From NCBI RefSeq assembly GCF_020740795.1, contig NC_067299.1, positions 11,667,333-11,731,332 of the forward strand: 64,000 nucleotides of DNA, given 5' to 3'. The notes beneath the pieces were generated by a model that was not told the DNA's origin, searched no databases, and saw only the letters and a program-made list of their open reading frames with translations. Position 1 is the stretch's first letter. Each line of letters opens with the position of its first letter. Below, in pieces: positions 18,248 to 59,925 of the stretch. This DNA comes from Apus apus (lineage: Eukaryota; Chordata; Aves; Apodiformes; Apodidae). Made by a program: the position numbers and the translations under genes.

Positions 18248-19070
18248 TAATCATAGAATCATTAAGGTTGGAAAAGACCTTCAGGATCACCAAGTCCAAC
18301 CGTCCATCCTACAACCCCATGACCACTAAACCATCTCCTGAAACACCACATCTACCTGTTTTTTTAACACCTCCGGGGATGGTGCCTCCACCACCTCCCT
18401 GGGCAGCTGTTCCAAGGCCTCACCACTCTTTCTGTGAAGAAATATTTCCTAATATCTAATCAGAACCTCCCCTGGTGCAGCTTGACCCCATTTCCTCTTA
18501 TCCTATCACTCATCACCAGGGAGAAGAGCCCAAGTCCCACCTCACCACAACCTCCTCTCAGGTAGTTATAGCCAGCAATGAGGTCTCCCCTCAGCCTCCT
18601 CTTCTCCAGGCTCAACAGCCCCAGCTTCCTCAGCCTCTCCTCATCAGACCTGTTCTCCAGACCCCTCATCAGCCTACTTGCCCTTCTCTGCCCCCTCTCC
18701 AGCACCTCAATGTCCTTCCCATCCTGTGGTGCCCAAACCCGCACCCAATGCTCCAGGTGCAGCCTCACCAAGGCCAAGTAGAAGGGCAGGATCACCTCCC
18801 TGGTCCTGCTGGTCACACTATTCCTGATGCAGGCCAGAATGCTGGTGGCCTTCTTGGCCACCTGGGCACACGCTGGCTCATGTTCAGCTGCTGTTAATCA
18901 GCACCCCCAGGTCCCTCTCTGCTGGGCAGCACCAGCCACTCCTCCCCAGCCCGGAGACCTGCTGGGGGTTGTTGTGGCTCAAGTGCAGGACCTGACATTT
19001 GGCCTTATCGAAACTCACACAACTGGCCTTGGCACATCAATCAAGCCTGTCCAGATCCTGGTTACATCAA
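18248..19070 (-). mobile_element. CR1 LINE, 5'-truncated
   Basis: On the minus strand it encodes [20 protein letters not shown] and then [36 protein letters not shown] and [10 protein letters not shown], the C-terminal part of CR1 ORF2. The 3' tip (agaatcattaaggttggaaa on the plus strand) lies at the left end. Confidence 0.9.
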
Positions 19071-34099: not shown

Positions 34100-34800
34100 A
34101 TTTTTTTAAAATAAATGCTAAAGGCCACCAGCTACAGAAACCTCCGGCGGCTGCAGCCCAAGGCGAGGAGGCACCTCCTCCAAAACAGAGCGCCGAGCCA
34201 GCTTCCCCAGGCGGGATGCAGGAGAGAGGGGTCCCTGGCAGAACATCCAGCCCCCGTCGCCACCGCAGCCGGTGGCACAGGGGTGGGATCTCCGCGGCTC
34301 CTGCCGGGTGGGCGGCCGGGGCGGCCCTTGGCCGTGGAAGCTGGGGGGAAGATCTCGTCCCGCGGCCGGAGGGTGGACCCAGCCGGGCCCGGAGCCTCTG
34401 CTCCAGGGCCCAGGTGTCCGGACGACGCGCACGGCTCACGCCGCCGGGCGCCGCTCGCCGCCGCGGAGCTGAAGGGCCGCCACTCCCGGCACGGCGGGGC
34501 GGAGGCCCCGCAGCGCCGCCGGAGCGAGCACGAGGGCCCGCAGCGGATGGGCAGCCTCCATCTCGAGCCCCACCCGGCGGGAGCCCCATGTCTCCTCTTC
34601 ATGTGGACCGGCCACACCTCGGGGCCGCGGGCCCGTCAGCGCCGCCTCAGCGCTGCCGCCACCGGGCCGGCAGCCGCCCCTCGCGGGCGGGCCCCGCTCA
34701 CCGGGCGACGGCGAGGAGCAGGGGGGCCCGGCCAGGAAAAGCCCGGGGAAGGCTGAGGGGCTCGGGCAGGGACCCGGCCCAGCGCCCGCCGGGGTCTCAC

Positions 34801-34900
34801 CTGGCTCCGGCCGCGCCGCTCCCGCCTCTACCGCGTGCAGCTCCCCGCCCTGCCCCGCCCCCCGGCCCGCTCGCAGCAGCCAATCAGCGCCCGGCAGCGC
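34801..34900 (-). other. MTMR4: Probable non-coding first exon of MTMR4
   Basis: On the minus strand the CpG island contains a consensus donor, GGAGCCAG followed by gtgagacc, with its GT at 34800-34799. It is the best donor in the island on that strand and lies just downstream of the first CCAAT pair. The 5' end of the exon is only estimated. A second possible donor (CGCCCG followed by gtgagc) lies near 34700. Confidence 0.5.
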
Positions 34901-35073
34901 CAGCCCTGCCGGCCAATCAGCGAGGTGAACGCGTCCCCGCCCCGCGCCACGGCCCGCCAGGCCCCGCCCTTCTCCTCCCGCGGGCCCATCCCGTGACCGG
35001 GCGCGGCGCGCGGGGCGGGACCCGGCGCCCGGCGCCCAATGAGAAATCACAGCGCGTCCCGCTCGCAGCCAAT
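34880..35073 (+). promoter_or_regulatory. Two pairs of CCAAT boxes, 33 bp apart in each pair
   Basis: CCAAT starts at 34880 and 34913 (33 bp apart) and again at 35036 and 35069 (33 bp apart). Three of the four sit in CCAATCRGCG contexts. NF-Y commonly binds CCAAT pairs spaced about three helical turns apart, so this looks like a duplicated NF-Y platform. Confidence 0.6.
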
Positions 35074-35230
35074 CGGCGGCCGGATCAGCCCCGGGCAGGG
35101 CGGGGCCGGGCCGTCCCACTGCCCCGCCTGCGCGCGCGGCCCCGGGGCCGGGGGGGGCGGCCCGAAGACGCAGCCGCGGCCTGAGGGCAGAGCCGGCCCC
35201 GCCCCCCGGGCCGCTCGGCAGCGAGGGACC

Positions 35231-35335
35231 CGCCCCGCCCCGCCCGGCACGGCACCGCCCCGCCCCGCCCGGCACGGCACCGCCCCGCCCCGCCCCCCAC
35301 GGCACCGCCCCGCCCCGCACCGCTCCGCACCGCCC
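35231..35335. repeat. 25-bp GC-box minisatellite
   Basis: Four consecutive 25-base units start at 35231, 35256, 35281 and 35306, each beginning cgccccgccccgc and mostly ending ggcacggcac, with a partial fifth. Each unit contributes one or two Sp1-type GC boxes. It lies inside the MTMR4 CpG island. Confidence 0.85.
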
Positions 35336-35400
35336 CGCCCTCCTCGGCGGGCAGCGCCCCCCGCGCCGGGGCCCCGGGCACCTCACAGCGCGGAGCCCTG

Positions 35401-36272: not shown

Positions 36273-36279
36273 ATGGCAG
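36273..36279 (+). pseudogene. CASP1: Caspase fossil exon 1 (Met-Ala-)
   Basis: ATGGCAG is followed by a consensus donor gtgagtgtg (GT at 36280). Joined to the CARD exon it gives Met-Ala-Asp-Lys, the same first four residues as mammalian caspase-1 (MADK), with the same split of the Asp codon. Confidence 0.75.
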
Positions 36280-36439
36280 GTGAGTGTGACCAGCAGTGCT
36301 GGGGCTCGGTGGTGGGACTTACCCAGGTTCACCCAAGTTCTTCTCACCATGGCCAGCTTGAGTAGCGGGGACATGACGCAGCACGGCAGGCTGGGGCCGG
36401 GGATGCTATTCCTGAGTAATTGCCGCCCTACTTTTTCCA

Positions 36440-36720
36440 AATATGTTCCCTAGGAGGTGGGCCATGGCAGGGGAAGCCCCGGCCTAGGCAATGAGGGAGG
36501 GAGCAGCAGCCTGGGTGGGCAGTGGGGGAGCAGGAGAAGCCAGGTGGCTGTGGGAGGAGGGATCAGCAGCTTGGGGGAAGGCAGCAACAGGGAACATGGC
36601 AGCACCCAGGGGAGGCAATGGGTAAGAAAGAGCAGCTAGAGGGGTGACAGGGAAGGGAGCAGCACCCTGGAGAGGTGATGGGGAAGAGGAAGCATCCAGA
36701 CCAAGCAGTGGGGCAGCAGG
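36440..36720. repeat. Degenerate tandem repeat in fossil intron 1
   Basis: Seven or more diverged copies of a unit of roughly 36 bases, built around gggagcagcagcctgg and ggcagtggggaag. The units vary in length and sequence. Confidence 0.6.
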
Positions 36721-36765
36721 AGCCGTGGCGTGGAGGCTCGTGGCACTGACAGGGCTGCCCTGCAG

Positions 36766-36960
36766 ACAAGCTGCTCCTGAACGTTCGGACAGCCTTCGTG
36801 CAGCAGTGAGCACACCAGTCATCTCTGGGCTGCTGGATGACCTGCTGGCCAAAGGACTGCACAAAGCAGCTGCTACCAGCCTCAGGAGTGGTGCAGAGGC
36901 CTTCGCGTGCACTGCTGATGCAGGCTCAGGCAGCACAGGGTCATCTCTGTCTCCTGTGGC
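36766..36960 (+). pseudogene. CASP1: Caspase fossil CARD exon with frameshift
   Basis: After the acceptor ccctgcag the frame reads DKLLLNVRTAFVQQ, then hits TGA at 36807-36809. Moving one base restores homology: STPVISGLLDDLLAKGL, matching the CARD helix GLLDELL. One base is therefore missing near 36807. The second half of the CARD is hard to follow; a third frame gives SRALLMQAQAAQG, which weakly resembles the TRALIDSV...GAQA stretch, suggesting another shift. The exon end is approximate. Confidence 0.75.
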
Positions 36961-37045
36961 AGTGGCTCCTGGCCAGAGCTAGTGACTGGATCTTCACACT
37001 GTTGGTCACAGGTGGCTGATGTCCCTTCCTTGTGCTGGTTTATAG

Positions 37046-37298
37046 GGGATGGCTACGGTCATGGAGGAATCTGCAGATCGCAAAGAGCACCGCACCTCTG
37101 ACAGCACCTTCCTAGTCTTCATGTCTAATGGAGTCAGGGCTGGGCTCCGTGGGACCAAGAGCAGAAGCAAGACCTCAGACATCCTTTCCCTCAACACCAT
37201 CTATGAGAAATTCAACAACAAGCACTGCCAGGCACTGCTGGGCAAACCCAAAGTGGTCATTTCCCAGGCCTGCCGTGAAGGAGAGTCCCTGGGACAAG
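37046..37298 (+). pseudogene. CASP1: Caspase fossil p20 exon with active-site changes
   Basis: The acceptor is tttatag. The exon encodes the second part of p20: EHRTSDSTFLVFMSNGVRAG, then DILSLNTIYEKFNNKHCQAL, KPKVVISQAC and REGESLGQ. The nucleophile Cys codon remains. The catalytic His codon at 37127-37129 is AAT (Asn). One extra codon follows the Cys-Arg pair. The donor that keeps phase is the GT at 37299; a stronger-looking donor at 37310 would put the next exon out of frame. Confidence 0.9.
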
Positions 37299-37409
37299 GT
37301 GCCTGCAGGGTGAGTGAGCAAGCCAGGCTCTCCCAGGTCACGTGAGCCCCAACCACAGGGTGGGGACAGGACACCCCATCATCACTGATGGCTGGCCCTG
37401 CCTCCCTAG

Positions 37410-37562
37410 GCAATACAGGGTCTGTGATGGTGAGCAACTCCGAAGAGTCTGACAGGTCCACTCCAAGCTTGACTGATAGCATCTCTGCAGGGCTGGAAGA
37501 TGATGCAGTCCGTGAAGTCCACCTGGAGAGTGATTTTTCCACTTTACATTCCTCCACACCTG
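37410..37562 (+). pseudogene. CASP1: Caspase fossil p20/p10 linker exon
   Basis: The acceptor is cctccctag and the donor gtaagcc. The frame is open: GLEDDAVREVHLESDFSTLH then SSTP, equivalent to the caspase-1 [23 protein letters not shown]. The Cys of the CSSTP motif is His here. The exon spans the region where the inter-subunit linker would be cleaved. Confidence 0.88.
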
Positions 37563-38158
37563 GTAAGCCATTCCTAGGGATGGTTGCCCTGTCCGAGGGC
37601 AGGTGAGGGTGACAGGACTCCCTATGGGTCTCCTCCACACCTCCTCCTGCTTGGGGCTGGTCCCCGAGTGTCCTTCCATCTTGTGACTGCTTGGGTGTCA
37701 CTCCAGCACAGCCTCTGGAGGAGGCAGTGTCCCCTGATGCCAGAGTATAAGGCTGTTCCAGGACACCAAGCCAGATCCCTCTGGCACCAGGGCCAGAGCT
37801 TTGTGCCCCTGCCTGGCTGCCTTCCCTTACCCCTTCCCCACTGGCGCTGCCTGCACTCCTTCTCCAGCCAGTTTATCTCACTGCAGTGGCTGGCTGGGGG
37901 AACTTGTCTTCTGCTGGCTCACAGATGGCTCCAGACTATGCCAGCCGGCATGGCTGGGACCATGGAAGAGCAGAGAGGCTTGAAAAAAATATAATTTCTA
38001 TTTGTCTGGGATGCCTTGTCCTTTTCCAGTGCTGTGGGTTGGACAGGCCAGTGATCTTGGAAAAGGTGCCCCAGTCTCCTGCTGTAGCACCCAGCATTAA
38101 TCACTGTTACAGTGAGGGACATCAGTGAAATCAGACTTGTCATCTTCTGTCTCCCCAT

Positions 38159-38262
38159 ATACTGTGTCCTGGAGACACCCAGTAACAGGCTCCCTTTTCA
38201 TCCGGAGCCTGATAGAGCAAAACCACGCCTGTACCAGCAGCTTACAGGAACTCTTCTGAAAG
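38159..38262 (+). pseudogene. CASP1: Caspase fossil p10 exon with lost acceptor and stop
   Basis: The frame reads (D)TVSWRHPVTGSLFIRSLIEQ, then NHACTSSLQELF, TGA and Lys before the donor gtgaga. Phase predicts the exon starts at 38159, after a good pyrimidine tract, but the two bases where AG is required (38157-38158) are AT. TGA at 38257-38259 stands where mammalian caspase-1 has Arg (EEIFRKV), a one-base change from CGA. Confidence 0.88.
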
Positions 38263-38600
38263 GTGAGACTTTGTAGGTAAGTGTAGGTGTCAGCAGATGC
38301 AGCCGGCCAATGGTCAGAAATTCTGCTGGGAACAGAGCTTTGGCCAGGGTAGGCCCTTCTGGAGCAGGCTCTGTCAAAAAGGGGTCTGGTATGGCCTGGG
38401 AAGTCAGCTGGGTCTCTGGAGATATCAGCACCCTGCCACATGGTCATGCAAGAGCCTGATGTCTTGGCACAGCCTGTGGCCCTTGTGCCAGCAGACACAT
38501 GCTTGGGGATGGCCCTTGAGATGTCTCCTGGCTCCCTGCACTCTTCCCAGGCTAGGAACAGAGCTGCTCTCATTTCTCCTCACACTCTCTCTCCTCGCAG

Positions 38601-38693
38601 GTCCAATATTCCTTTGACAAATTCCCTCAGCAGTTGCCATCACAAGAATGGACTACAATGCTCAGGAAGTTCTACTTTTTGCCAGGCCACTGA
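38601..38693 (+). pseudogene. CASP1: Caspase fossil terminal exon
   Basis: The acceptor is ctctcctcgcag. An open frame of 30 residues begins VQYSFDKFPQQL and ends LRKFYFLPGH before TGA. FYFLPGH is the near-invariant caspase-1 C-terminus (FYLFPGH). This exon by itself is undamaged. Confidence 0.93.
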
Positions 38694-40216: not shown

Positions 40217-42469
40217 CTATGGTGGTGGCAGGAAATTGAGGACAGCAGTGATGAATTCTTCAAATTTATCCTGATGGACTATGTGGCCTGCACCTTCAAT
40301 GTACTGGACATCCGCCTTGGGGAAGAGGCGCTGGATCTCTGGGTAGTCTTTGGGGCTGCAGGACAAGGGAACACACCATGGGAAGCATGGTCAGAAGTCC
40401 ATCCAGGCGTCTTCCCTCACCCTCCCCAGGCAGAGGGAGATCCCAGGTCTGACCATGTCCCTTTCGCTGCTGGGAAAGCCCAGGGCTGCCCCCAGATTGC
40501 CCCTCGCTCTCCAGCGTGTTGGTGTCACCAGCTGCTGGAGGCACAGAGGTTGCTCCAGGACCACCCCCATCTCAGGGGCTTCCTCCCACCCTGGAGAGCT
40601 GCAGGAGATCACAAGGGGTCAAACCACAGACTTCAACCTGCTTCTCTCCAGTCCCACCTGATATAGGGTGAGTTGGATCCCCCCAAGAAGAGCGCAGGGC
40701 CAGGATACGGCTTGTGGAAGGCAGGGAAGTTCATGATATCTGCCAAGTGGTGGGAAATAGCCTCCAGGTTCACTCGCCAGACATAGCGGCCTTCCACCTC
40801 TACCAGGTTGGTGAGGAGGAACTGTCTCAGCTGCGGGAGCTGCCACAGAAAGGGAACATGGCAGGGAAATTGTACACTTCAGTAAGGAGCAACAAGCCCT
40901 CAAGATGTCCTGGTGCCCTGCATCCTCCCCTCCACCTGGTTCTGACCATCTCCTATGCTGTCACATTCCCATCACTCCTGCAGCCCTGGTGTGATGTTCT
41001 CCAGCTGCCCACAACAGCAGTGAGTCAGCAGGGGTGGAAAGAGTCCTGCTGGGACCATGGCTCTGAAGACCTGTGCTCCAGTCTCAGGGACAGGTTGGGA
41101 GTGCAAACCCTATCCAAGGAGTGGGACTTCCTACCTGGACCACCGGACGCAGCTGATCGTCAGCCAGCTGGCGAGCTGCAGAGCGTGACAGCCCATCCGG
41201 GAGCTTCACAGACTTCATGGCAGAGATGTAGGCAGAGAATTCGGAGACAGGTGTGGTTAAGACAGGACTAATATCTACAGAGATGAGGCGCTCCACAAGG
41301 TCTGGCTGGGGACACAAGAGGGGCAGATGGATGCCAGCCAAGACCTCCCCAGCAGGACTGGGCACAGGGCTCTGCTGGAGGCTTCAAGCTCCCTCCTGCC
41401 TCAGCAAAGACTCCATGTGCCCTTCCCTGCATTTCTGTTTCCTTGTGCCTTGGCATGGGAGATCTCCAGTTCCCTTGAAATCAATGTGGAGGGACAGGGC
41501 AGAGCATGGAGGGACAGGGCAGAGCGTGGAGGGACAGGGCAGAGCGTGGAGGGACAGGGCAGAGCGTGGAGGGACAGGGCAGAGCGTGGAGGGACAGGGC
41601 AGAGCGTGGAGGGACAGGGCAGAGCGTGGACTACCAGAGACTCCTGCTTCCACAGCCTGGTTTAGAAGCTAAGCAGGAGAGGCAGCACCCCAGACCTTGA
41701 CAGAGAAAAGCCACCTCCTGCGGGACTGCGGGCAAGGCCAGCACCCACAGGTGTCACCTCCCTCCCCACAGCCCCCCGGGCCAGCTGCCCCCCAGCCCCG
41801 AGAGCCCTGCGCTGCCCACCCGCTGCAGGGCCAGCACCATGGCCGTCTTGCCCCCCATGCTGTGTCCTAGGAGGATGCACTTGGTGATGCCCAGGCGGGT
41901 CAGGAGGTGCTGCACATCCAGGCTCATAGCTTCGTAGGTCATCAGCGGGCTGTGGGGGCTGCTGCCATGGTTCCGGGCGTCCAGCGTCAGCACCTACCTG
42001 GGCCGGAGCAGCGGGTCAGCCCCTCCCGCGGCACTGCGCCCCCCCCTCCCCCTCCCCGTCTCTCCCCGCAGCGAGGGTCTCACCTTGCCCCCGCCGCGGC
42101 GCGCCAGGGCCTTGGCCACCGTCTGGAAGTTGCCGCGGCTGCCGAAGAGCCCGTGGAGCAGCACCAGGGGGGGCCGGGCCCCGCCTGCCCCCACCTCCGC
42201 GTGGGCCAGCGGCACCGCGCTGCGGGGGAGAGCGTGGGGAGGGCGGGGCCACGGCCGGCCTTGCCGGGGCGGCGGGGCCGGGCCACAGCAAGCCCAGCCT
42301 GTGGGGGAACCGTGCGACCTCCAGGGAGCGGCCCCGCCCCGCCCCGCCCCTCCCCCCGGGACCCCTCCCGCCCCCGCCCCGCGCGGCCCGGCCCTTACGT
42401 GGCGGCGGAGCGCGCGCTGCCGGGCGGGGCGGCGGGGCCGCGGGGCAGGCGGCGCAGCACGGCGGCCAT
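40217..42469 (-). CDS. ABHD11: ABHD11, mitochondrial alpha/beta hydrolase
   Basis: Six exons in phase give a 290-residue protein: 42399-42469, 42084-42219, 41820-41993, 41135-41305, 40658-40839 and 40217-40355. All sites are GT/AG. The N-terminus (MAAVLRRLPRGPAAPPGSAR) is Arg-rich and lacks acids, like a mitochondrial presequence. HGLFGSRGNF is the oxyanion-hole region. GHSMGG, with nucleophile Ser114, is the elbow. GAGHIVH gives the catalytic His (about 269). The segments LDARNHGSSPH, LVERLISVDISPV and LLTNLVEVEGRYVWRVNLEA are close to human ABHD11. The human protein is a mitochondrial matrix hydrolase reported to protect 2-oxoglutarate dehydrogenase lipoylation. The start has ATGG context inside a CpG island. 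Length is slightly under human (about 315), mostly at the N-terminus. Confidence 0.95.
41486..41630. repeat. 20-bp minisatellite in ABHD11 intron
   Basis: Seven nearly perfect head-to-tail copies of gtggagggacagggcagagc, starting at 41486 and every 20 bases to 41606, with a partial eighth. One copy differs by a single base (atgga). The period is not a multiple of three and the array lies in an intron, so the frames through it are not coding. Confidence 0.95.
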
Positions 42470-43568: not shown

Positions 43569-44213
43569 TCAGACATAGTTCCTCTTGTCGTAGCTGGTGA
43601 CTGCGGAGCGTGGGGCAGAGTAGGCCACCTTGCCGGTGGGGTACCTGTCATCTTTGGGGGGGCAGGAGCAGCAGAGCAGGGCCCCCCCCAGCAGCAGGAG
43701 GGCAGAGGCCGCCCAGCCCACGTAGAGCGAGGTGCCCAGCTCCCGCTTCTGCGCTTCGATCACCAGCGGGTTGTAGAAATCCCGGATGATGGTGTTAGCC
43801 GACCAGGAGACAGGAATGAGGTTCATGACGCCGGAGAGGAGGAAGATGACGCCGGAGACGATGGTGATCTTCGCTTTGGTGCTCTCGTCTTCCACGCAGC
43901 GGGTGCACTGGGCACCCACAATGGCCACCATTAAGCCTAGGACGGCCAAGACAATGGCCACCACCAGGAGGGCACGGGCGGCTTGCAGGTCCTGGGGCAG
44001 GGCCAGCATGGAGTCGTAGACCTTGCACTGCATCTGCCCTGTGCTCTGCACCACGCAGTTCATCCACAGCCCTTCCCAGATGATCTGGGCCGTCACGATG
44101 TTGTTGCCGATGAAGGCCGTCACCCTCCACATGGGCAACGCGCAACAGATGATGCTGCATAACCAACCCAGCACCGACAAGGCTACTCCACCGATCTCCA
44201 ACCCCATCGACAT
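43569..44213 (-). CDS. CLDN3: CLDN3, claudin-3 tight-junction protein
   Basis: Single-exon frame of 214 residues starting [17 protein letters not shown]. The start is the ATG in gccaccATGT (44213), an ideal context; the nine in-frame codons upstream begin at a TTG and are not used. Four membrane segments are visible. The first extracellular loop carries the claudin signature W-EGLW-C-C ([18 protein letters not shown]). The second loop has [16 protein letters not shown]. The cytoplasmic end is [17 protein letters not shown], with the final YV expected to bind ZO-1 PDZ domains. The N-terminus and GAQCTRC segment fit claudin-3 rather than claudin-4. It is transcribed away from CLDN4, with about 6.8 kb between start codons. 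Confidence 0.95.
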
Positions 44214-44319
44214 GGTGGCCGGTTTGCTGCTGCGCTCCAAGTGATGGCGGAGAAGAGCCTACGGACCGAAACTGTCGCCGTCACCCTTCGCTGCTTGCAG
44301 CCCTTGGGGGATCAGCTTA

Positions 44320-57861: not shown

Positions 57862-57997
57862 CGCCCGCCCCGCCCCGCGGACACGCCCCGCCCCGCGGAC
57901 ACGCCCCGCCCCGCGGACACGCCCCGCCCCGCGGACACGCCCCGCCCCGCGGACACGCCCCGCCCCGCGGACACGCCCCGCCCCGCGGACACGCCCC
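57862..57997. repeat. 18-bp GC-box minisatellite at the METTL27 promoter
   Basis: Seven copies of an 18-base unit (gcggacacgccccgcccc), with gcggacac at 57877, 57895, 57913, 57931, 57949, 57967 and 57985. Copies are essentially identical. Each provides one Sp1/KLF GC box. The array begins just upstream of the METTL27 ATG. Confidence 0.95.
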
Positions 57998-58049: not shown

Positions 58050-59330
58050 CAAGTGCGCCGGAAATGGGGGGGGGGAAGGAGCGGGTGGTCTGGGTGTAAC
58101 CAAGTGCCCTGGGGGTGGCCCAGGGGGTCTCTCCCTGCAGAGTCCCGAGGCCCCGTCCCACTGCGCTTCGCCCGCAGCTGTCCTGCTCTGTCCCGTGCAG
58201 GGGCAGGTGCTGCCTTCTCCCGCCTCATCGCTGGTGTGCCAGGCACTGTGACCCTGCTCCCTGGACAGGCCAGCCCCTGCCCAGCCCCATGTCCCAGCGC
58301 CAGCTGACCTTGCGCTGTCACTTCCCTGCTTGCATCTGCATCTTCTGCCCTTCAAACCCACCATCCAGTGCTCAGCGAGTGGTGACAACACTCTTCTGCC
58401 ACCACCTGAACTCATCCTGTCCCTCCATGTGTAAAGGTGACATCCTAAGGCTGAACAGCTCTCCCAGTCCCCAGGGAAGAGGGCACTGGAGCAGGTCCTA
58501 CCCATCTCCACTTGCCCAGCCACTCCCATAGGGTGCTCGTTCTGCACTGCCCCTTGCCCATGGACAAGGCGTGTAGCAGCAGGAAGGGCTTGGGGACAGA
58601 GGATCGGAGCATGGATCCTTGAGGCTGGGAAGGAGGAGGAACATCTTGCCTATATCGAGTTTGGGTTTTGCTCCTGGGAAGTGGGACAAGAAATATCACT
58701 GAGTGCCAACGTGATGCATAGGGAGGTGATGTCTTCTCCGGGTCATCTCTGCAATGCTTGATCCAGATGCCCAGTATTTGTGATGTTCAGTATCCAGCTG
58801 ATTAACGAGATGTTAATTAGCTCTTGGGTAGATAGGACCTTAGTGAGTCTCCGCTGCCTTGGGAGTGACTTTTCTGCTAAACCAACCTCAGATGTTCACA
58901 GCAGAGGACGTGGGACAAACTCCAGTTTGTGGGACCACCCTTAAGCGTTGTGACTCCTCCCTTGGTTCTGCCTTTTTCCGGGAGAAAACAAGACACATCC
59001 AGCTGCTAATTAACGACAGAAGGAAAATGAAGGTGCTCTGAAGGAGGAGCCGGTGGCTCCACTCGGCTGCTCCTGGCCCGGTGGCCGCGTGGGGACCTCC
59101 CCCCGGCCGCGGCGGGGGTGGCCGTGCCCGCGGCGGGCAGTGCCGGGCGGGGCCTCGGGAGGGAGCCCTCGGCCCGGGCACGCGCAGGGGCCGCAGCAGC
59201 CGTGGGGCCGCCCGAGGGGACGGGCGGGACGGGTCGGACCCGGGGAGCAGCGATCACCCCCGGCCCGGCACGCGAAGGGCTCCCCGGGGGCGGGTCGGCC
59301 AGGGCACAGCCCTGCCGCGGCTTCTTTGGG
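58050..59330. other. Intergenic, right of METTL27
   Basis: No recognisable gene. A second CpG-rich patch lies at 59060-59310, immediately before a CR1 copy, and could be an unassigned promoter. Confidence 0.5.
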
Positions 59331-59925
59331 TGCGTTAGAAAGGGGGTGGTTAGTCGGTCAAGAGAGCTTCTCCTCCCCCTCTATTCTGCATTGGTGAGGC
59401 CGCATCTGGAGTGTTGTGTCCAGTTCTGGGCCCCTCAGTTCAGGAAGGACAGGGAACTGCTTAAAAGAGTCCAGCGCAGAGCCACAGAGATGATTAAGGG
59501 AGTGGAACATCTCCCTGATGAGGAAAGGCTGAGGGAGCTGGGTCTCTTCAGTTTGGAGAAAAGGAGACTGAGGGGTGACCTCATCAATGTTTACAAATAC
59601 GTAAAGGGTGAGTGTCAAGAAGATGGAGTTAAGCTTTTTTCAGTGATGACCAGTGATAGGACAAGGAGTAATGGATACAAATTGGAGCATAGGAGGTTTA
59701 AGGTGAATATCAGGAAAAAATTTTTTACTGTGAGAGTGACAGAGCCCTGGGACAGGCTGCCCAGAGAGGCTGTGGAGTCTTCTTCTCTGGAGACATTCAA
59801 ACCCGCCTGGACACGTTCCTGTGTGATGTGCTCTAGGTGACCCTGCTCTGGCAGGGGGGTTGGACTAGATGATCTTTCGAGGTCCCTTCCAACCCCTATG
59901 ATTCTATGATTCTATGATTCTGCAC
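59325..59925 (+). mobile_element. CR1 LINE, 5'-truncated
   Basis: The best-preserved CR1 here. An open frame runs [20 protein letters not shown], then [59 protein letters not shown] and [20 protein letters not shown], the C-terminus of ORF2. It ends with gattctatgattctatgatt. It appears young. Confidence 0.93.

Follow-up and report, generated by a model that had tools for sequence, protein, structure and literature searches.

The question raised by this stretch of DNA is whether the bird Apus apus still makes caspase-1. The window, by which we mean the whole stretch analysed (64,000 nucleotides, C19:11667333-11731332), belongs to a genome assembly of 1.10 Gb in 110 contigs (C1 to C110). On its plus strand, at 36273-38693, six CASP1-type exons lie in order (ATG, CARD, C-terminal p20, interdomain, p10 and last exon), with the introns retained. 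Judged from the sequence, it is very probably a unitary CASP1 pseudogene, decaying with its introns in place, and no other inflammatory caspase gene was found in the genome of this non-passerine bird. An earlier note, written from the letters alone, had seen a fossil caspase-1 here, and this much of it stands: the boundaries are right, 36273 being the A of the ATG (ATGGCAG followed by GTGAGT) and 38691-38693 the stop codon after FYFLPGH; exons of an inflammatory caspase are in order, its protease part having caspase-1 as the best match in PDB; and with introns kept and several lesions present, the gene does appear to decay in place. The remnant is composed as follows:

36273..36279, plus strand: remnant of exon 1, read from the sequence as the seven bases ATGGCAG, then the donor GTGAGT
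36766..36847, plus strand: remnant of the CARD exon, with a TGA at 36807-36809 in the frame of the ATG; the similarity continues in a different frame and fades past 36847
36848..37045, plus strand: stretch expected to hold the remaining CARD, linker and N-terminal p20 exons, none of them recognisable
37046..37298, plus strand: C-terminal p20 exon, open, with Asn for the catalytic His at 37127-37129, QACREG at 37265-37282 and the phase-1 donor GTGCCT
37410..37562, plus strand: interdomain/N-terminal p10 exon, open in one frame, with the donor GTAAGC
38159..38262, plus strand: p10 exon, lacking a directly preceding AG acceptor, with a TGA at 38257-38259
38601..38693, plus strand: last CASP1 exon, open, ending in FYFLPGH and a stop

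The first coding exon of human CASP1 likewise has seven bases. Part of intron 1 of the remnant (window 36468-36722) is taken up by degenerate repeats, spaced 27 to 96 bp apart.

The identity of the gene is best seen in its protease part. With human CASP1 as query, a genome-wide search ranked the window first, matching the C-terminal p20 exon at 37046-37294 (E 8.2e-19) and the p10 exon at 38143-38271 (E 1.1e-4); the last exon reached E 0.003 at best in a search within the window. In PDB, caspase-1 was the top match of the p20 exon (E 1.5e-21), followed by caspase-4, with caspase-2 at 3.6e-7, and also that of the small-subunit pieces (E 2.8e-22). By best matches rather than by a tree, the window gene is closest to caspase-1 among caspases and would be the CASP1 ortholog by descent. 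The CARD exon is weak. Pfam gave CARD at E 0.01, under the family cut-off, and the top PDB match was the CARD of caspase-1 at E 0.57. Its frame-aware score was 41, whereas none of 60 single-base shuffles exceeded 36; over 36280-38600, the CARD query scored 47 on the plus strand against at most 40 in 20 shuffles, and 34 on the opposite strand, equalled by 5 of 20. The remnant is missing from the 15 matches of a genome-wide CARD search, none of which lies on C19. The assignment is supported by the exon's position and by its splice phase following the ATG exon.

What is broken? Splicing from the ATG yields 16 codons and then the TGA in the CARD exon, so that CARD, itself hardly detectable, and protease do not share a single open frame. 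In the 198 bp that separate the end of the CARD similarity from 37046, no linker or N-terminal p20 exon was recognised, and tblastn with a human linker/p20-N query gave a best E of 0.15 in the whole window. Two scores of this query over 36280-38600 were discounted: 41 on the plus strand (best of 20 shuffles 40), as that alignment ends at 37456 inside exon 6, the interdomain exon, and 38 on the minus strand, which 2 of 20 shuffles equalled. The codon of the catalytic His has become AAT, turning SHG into SNG, and the QACRG motif now reads QACREG, with the catalytic Cys retained. The phase-compatible donor of the p20 exon, at 37299, is poor; a consensus-like GTGAGT lies 11 nt further, at 37310, and its use shifts the frame of the following exon into a stop. 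At the p10 exon the AG directly before 38159 is absent; an in-frame AG occurs 24 nt upstream, by eye without a clear pyrimidine tract. Finally, the TGA in the p10 exon shortens the small subunit. With the N-terminal part of p20 undetected and p10 truncated, neither is complete.

These lesions are not of equal weight. The missing N-terminal p20, the replacement of His by Asn and the TGA in p10 would each be expected to abolish a normal caspase-1 on their own; the early stop would do the same unless a later start is used. The altered QACRG, the poor donor and the missing acceptor AG are supporting lesions only. A working caspase-1 is unlikely to come from this locus because of the stop after 16 codons, the absent N-terminal p20, the His to Asn change and the shortened small subunit. 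The earlier claim that both catalysis and expression are broken holds for catalysis and only in part for expression, as the in-frame AG could still serve.

Several points weigh against calling the gene a pseudogene or the only one of its kind. Translation from a later start could avoid the early stop. The acceptor loss at p10 is indecisive because the upstream AG could substitute. The absence of the linker and of N-terminal p20 was judged by a human query, which a highly divergent remnant could escape. The open frames of three among the four surviving caspase exons point to a modest age or to some remaining constraint. The genome-wide searches score the best candidates only, which bears on uniqueness, and the pseudogene call rests on one genome assembly, which bears on fixation, age and reach among birds.

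One could, of course, take the open exons as the product of a remodelled gene, whose short message from an ATG at 37049 would encode a dead decoy of C-terminal p20 and p10, as CFLAR is for caspase-8. If the weak donor is used, the frame from 37049 is indeed open through exon 6, and, by eye, use of the upstream AG would carry it on to the TGA at 38257. Such a decoy, however, requires splicing at a donor and an acceptor that are both poor. The N-terminal half of p20 would be absent from it, as would the final 31 residues of p10, which makes a stable fold unlikely, and in the PDB-search alignment it carries Ser directly before QAC, where human caspase-1 has Ile. We regard the decoy as very improbable.

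Could the damage lie in the assembly and the true gene be intact? In bird assemblies, GC-rich genes of small chromosomes are frequently absent or damaged. Here, however, the 110 contigs include pieces of chromosome size, the window does not contain a single N, and three claudin frames beyond the CASP1 remnant are open. The lesions themselves consist of base changes, of an absent block and of a frame change in CARD that, by eye, lies outside a single-base run. An assembly or sequencing artefact is extremely improbable.

The earlier note had asked for a search for any other CASP1-like gene. A whole-genome search with Peptidase_C14 gave 31 candidates, 25 of which matched at an E of at most 0.001; one is the window gene and 24 fall into 13 fetched stretches. 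These were assigned by human CASP1, 3, 6 and 7 queries, by a PDB search for CASP2 and by motifs. They comprise CASP2, CASP3, CASP6, CASP7, a CASP9-type gene, a CASP17-like gene, three genes of CASP8/10/18 type, a CFLAR-like gene and three paracaspase-like stretches; the labels CASP8/10/18, CASP9, CASP17, CFLAR and paracaspase are those we presume to be right. One exon of the CASP2 gene was best matched by CASP1 among the four queries; PDB settled it as CASP2 (E 8.4e-56). The CASP17-like gene is CASP3-like and retains SHG and QACRG. The three paracaspase-like stretches showed no match to the four human queries at E 0.01. In the genome-wide search with human CASP1, 12 matches fell within E 10. 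Of these, two lie in the window, seven belong to the named caspase-type genes and two to CARD genes; the last, on C7, has E 5.7. No second CASP1 was thus found in two whole-genome searches (Peptidase_C14 and human CASP1) that recovered many other caspase genes. As an internal control, eight other active-type caspase genes show both the His and the Cys motif; the Cys motif alone was seen in the CASP9-type gene, the CFLAR-like gene lacks both, and the window gene has lost the His.

These searches also bear on the idea that the window holds a dead duplicate, with a working CASP1 in an unassembled stretch. The many small loose contigs do indicate that the assembly may be incomplete. Against this, the window copy has introns and sits on C19 near MTMR and ABHD11-like genes, and neither search gave any trace of a second copy. 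We give a duplicate as little credit as an artefact.

As to the arrangement of the other caspase genes, the CASP17-like gene (C27:5.21 Mb) lies about 174 kb from IL1B (C27:5.39 Mb) on the same small chromosome. C5 (115 Mb) carries CASP7, CASP6 and CASP3 at 8.9, 61.3 and 81.9 Mb. In chicken, CASP7 is, as we assume, on a chromosome separate from CASP6 and CASP3, and the joining on C5 is possibly a fusion.

If caspase-1 is lost, its partners become the interesting part. The earlier note expected IL-1beta, IL-18 and gasdermin A to remain, and the first and the last do. A gasdermin search (10 candidates, 6 matches, three places) led to a gene on C26 that is closest to GSDMA3 in PDB. Rebuilt at C26:1165610-1169902, this GSDMA has nine coding exons and 448 codons without a stop; all eight introns have GT donors (one weak, GTTTGA) and AG acceptors. 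In Pfam, residues 1-237 form the pore domain and 254-421 the inhibitory domain (PUB); between them, at 242-245, stands FVSD followed by Gly. A DRID motif, also followed by Gly, at 94-97 in the pore domain may, by analogy, match the caspase-3 inactivation site known for birds (PMC10948149). On C27, a gene of the IL1 family (one Pfam match, 6 candidates) has open exons, which by their sequence read as IL1B. IL18 is probably retained, as two exons on C23 match a chicken IL18 query (E 1.2e-6 and 2.2e-5); Pfam at E 0.01 recognised neither piece. On the sensor side, a NACHT search gave 17 candidates and 5 matches, with a profile that also matches 11 of 14 control genomes; a gene on C23 (5374808-5375179) is NLRP-type, its best PDB matches being NLRP7 and NLRP2. 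The NACHT exon of this gene is interrupted by an intron-like stretch of about 400 bp.

The retained linker site corresponds to the one at which chicken GSDMA is cut. Outside a group with YVAD-like sites, FVSD and FASD are the commonest tetrapeptides of bird GSDMA, and chicken caspase-1 cuts chicken GSDMA at 240-FASD-244 (PMC10948149). Apus apus thus shares the site of the bird caspase-1/GSDMA axis and differs in that the gene of the protease is broken. Chicken has one inflammatory caspase (PMC2865498); with the remains of one here, its loss would remove the output of the caspase-1 inflammasome entirely, and this output would accordingly be absent in Apus apus. The published bird scheme, in which GSDMA is cut by caspase-1, could then not apply, even though GSDMA, IL1B and probably IL18 are still present. 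By what is GSDMA activated and are IL-1 cytokines released without caspase-1, and in which lineages?

GSDMA-dependent pyroptosis and release of IL-1 family cytokines might run via another protease, caspase-8 first and caspase-10 or -18 next. Caspase-8, our best guess by analogy, is suggested because in Carnivora it carries the remaining activity (PMC8411117). There, too, caspase-1 output is compromised while IL-1beta and a gasdermin are kept; Carnivora, however, keep a caspase-1/-4 fusion, whereas a second inflammatory caspase was not found in Apus apus by the above searches. Alternatively, microbial proteases could trigger GSDMA at the same linker site, since SpeB cleaves chicken GSDMA at the FASD tetrapeptide used by caspase-1 (PMC10948149). 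As a third option, these processes may no longer run at all. A substrate with its cutting site may thus outlive caspase-1, and there may be a replacement enzyme or the site may now be useless. That FVSD with its Gly is under selection without caspase-1, being cut by another host protease, likeliest caspase-8, or sensing microbial ones, is a tentative proposal, which we think somewhat likelier to fail than to hold.

The consequences need not be dramatic. Chicken IL-1beta is said to lack a caspase-1 site, and doubt has been cast on whether chicken caspase-1 is active (PMC13076529); its action on GSDMA (PMC10948149) is contrary to that doubt. The missing site and the doubted activity would lower the cost of losing caspase-1 and count against a dramatic phenotype.

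Is this the loss that the earlier note mentioned for songbirds? Its songbird setting had to be abandoned. Passerines carry BIRC2 and CRADD on the split chromosomes 1 and 1A; here BIRC2 (PDB E 1.8e-35) and CRADD (RAIDD, E 4.6e-36) are both on C1 (206 Mb). The GSDMA tetrapeptide is FVSD and not YVAD; the YVAD-like group is monophyletic and includes the crow, a passerine (PMC10948149), from which we infer that this group is the passerines. A CASP17-like gene is present. A passerine identity thus fails on karyotype, tetrapeptide and CASP17. In a 2010 survey (PMC2865498), neither CASP17 nor CASP1 was found in zebra finch, and the absence of CASP1 was blamed on a likely gap. The likeness to Apus apus is that no group I caspase was found there, against one in chicken; the differences are that zebra finch offered no CASP1 sequence, whereas Apus apus, of a different lineage, shows the broken gene itself, and that a CASP17-like gene is found in Apus apus. 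A parrot, the budgerigar, expresses CASP1 transcripts (PMC12503942). Our literature search, which covered papers outside subscription, found among the matches listed no report of CASP1 loss in songbirds and none of a CASP1 pseudogene in a bird. Lineage-specific loss of immune genes is known already; what is new is that a single non-passerine genome combines a dead protease with a cleavage site that has been retained.

The surroundings of the locus contain the following features:

C19:11646483-11656859, minus strand: exons of an MTMR gene
window 34120..35400, no strand assigned: G+C-rich, CpG-island-like stretch, by eye
window 41766..41945, minus strand: ABHD11-like exon (GHSMGG, alpha/beta hydrolase)
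window 43572..44258, minus strand: claudin gene, open frame

The G+C-rich stretch may hold the promoter of this MTMR gene, of which the nearest matched exon is some 10.5 kb beyond the left end of the window. The earlier note placed the locus between MTMR4 and ABHD11, which we take to be the neighbours of chicken CASP1. An MTMR-type gene, possibly MTMR4, and an exon that we presume to be ABHD11 are nearby, which is consistent with such a neighbourhood. The main text of PMC13076529 does not name MTMR4, ABHD11 or CLDN.

The window further contains reverse-transcriptase-like frames at 18460-18897 (minus strand) and 59031-59840 (plus strand), which resemble remnants of CR1 retrotransposons in their motif. 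Two tandem arrays are also present, one at 41486-41630 with a repeat unit of 20 bp (98% matches), the other at 57866-57997 with one of 18 bp (100% matches).
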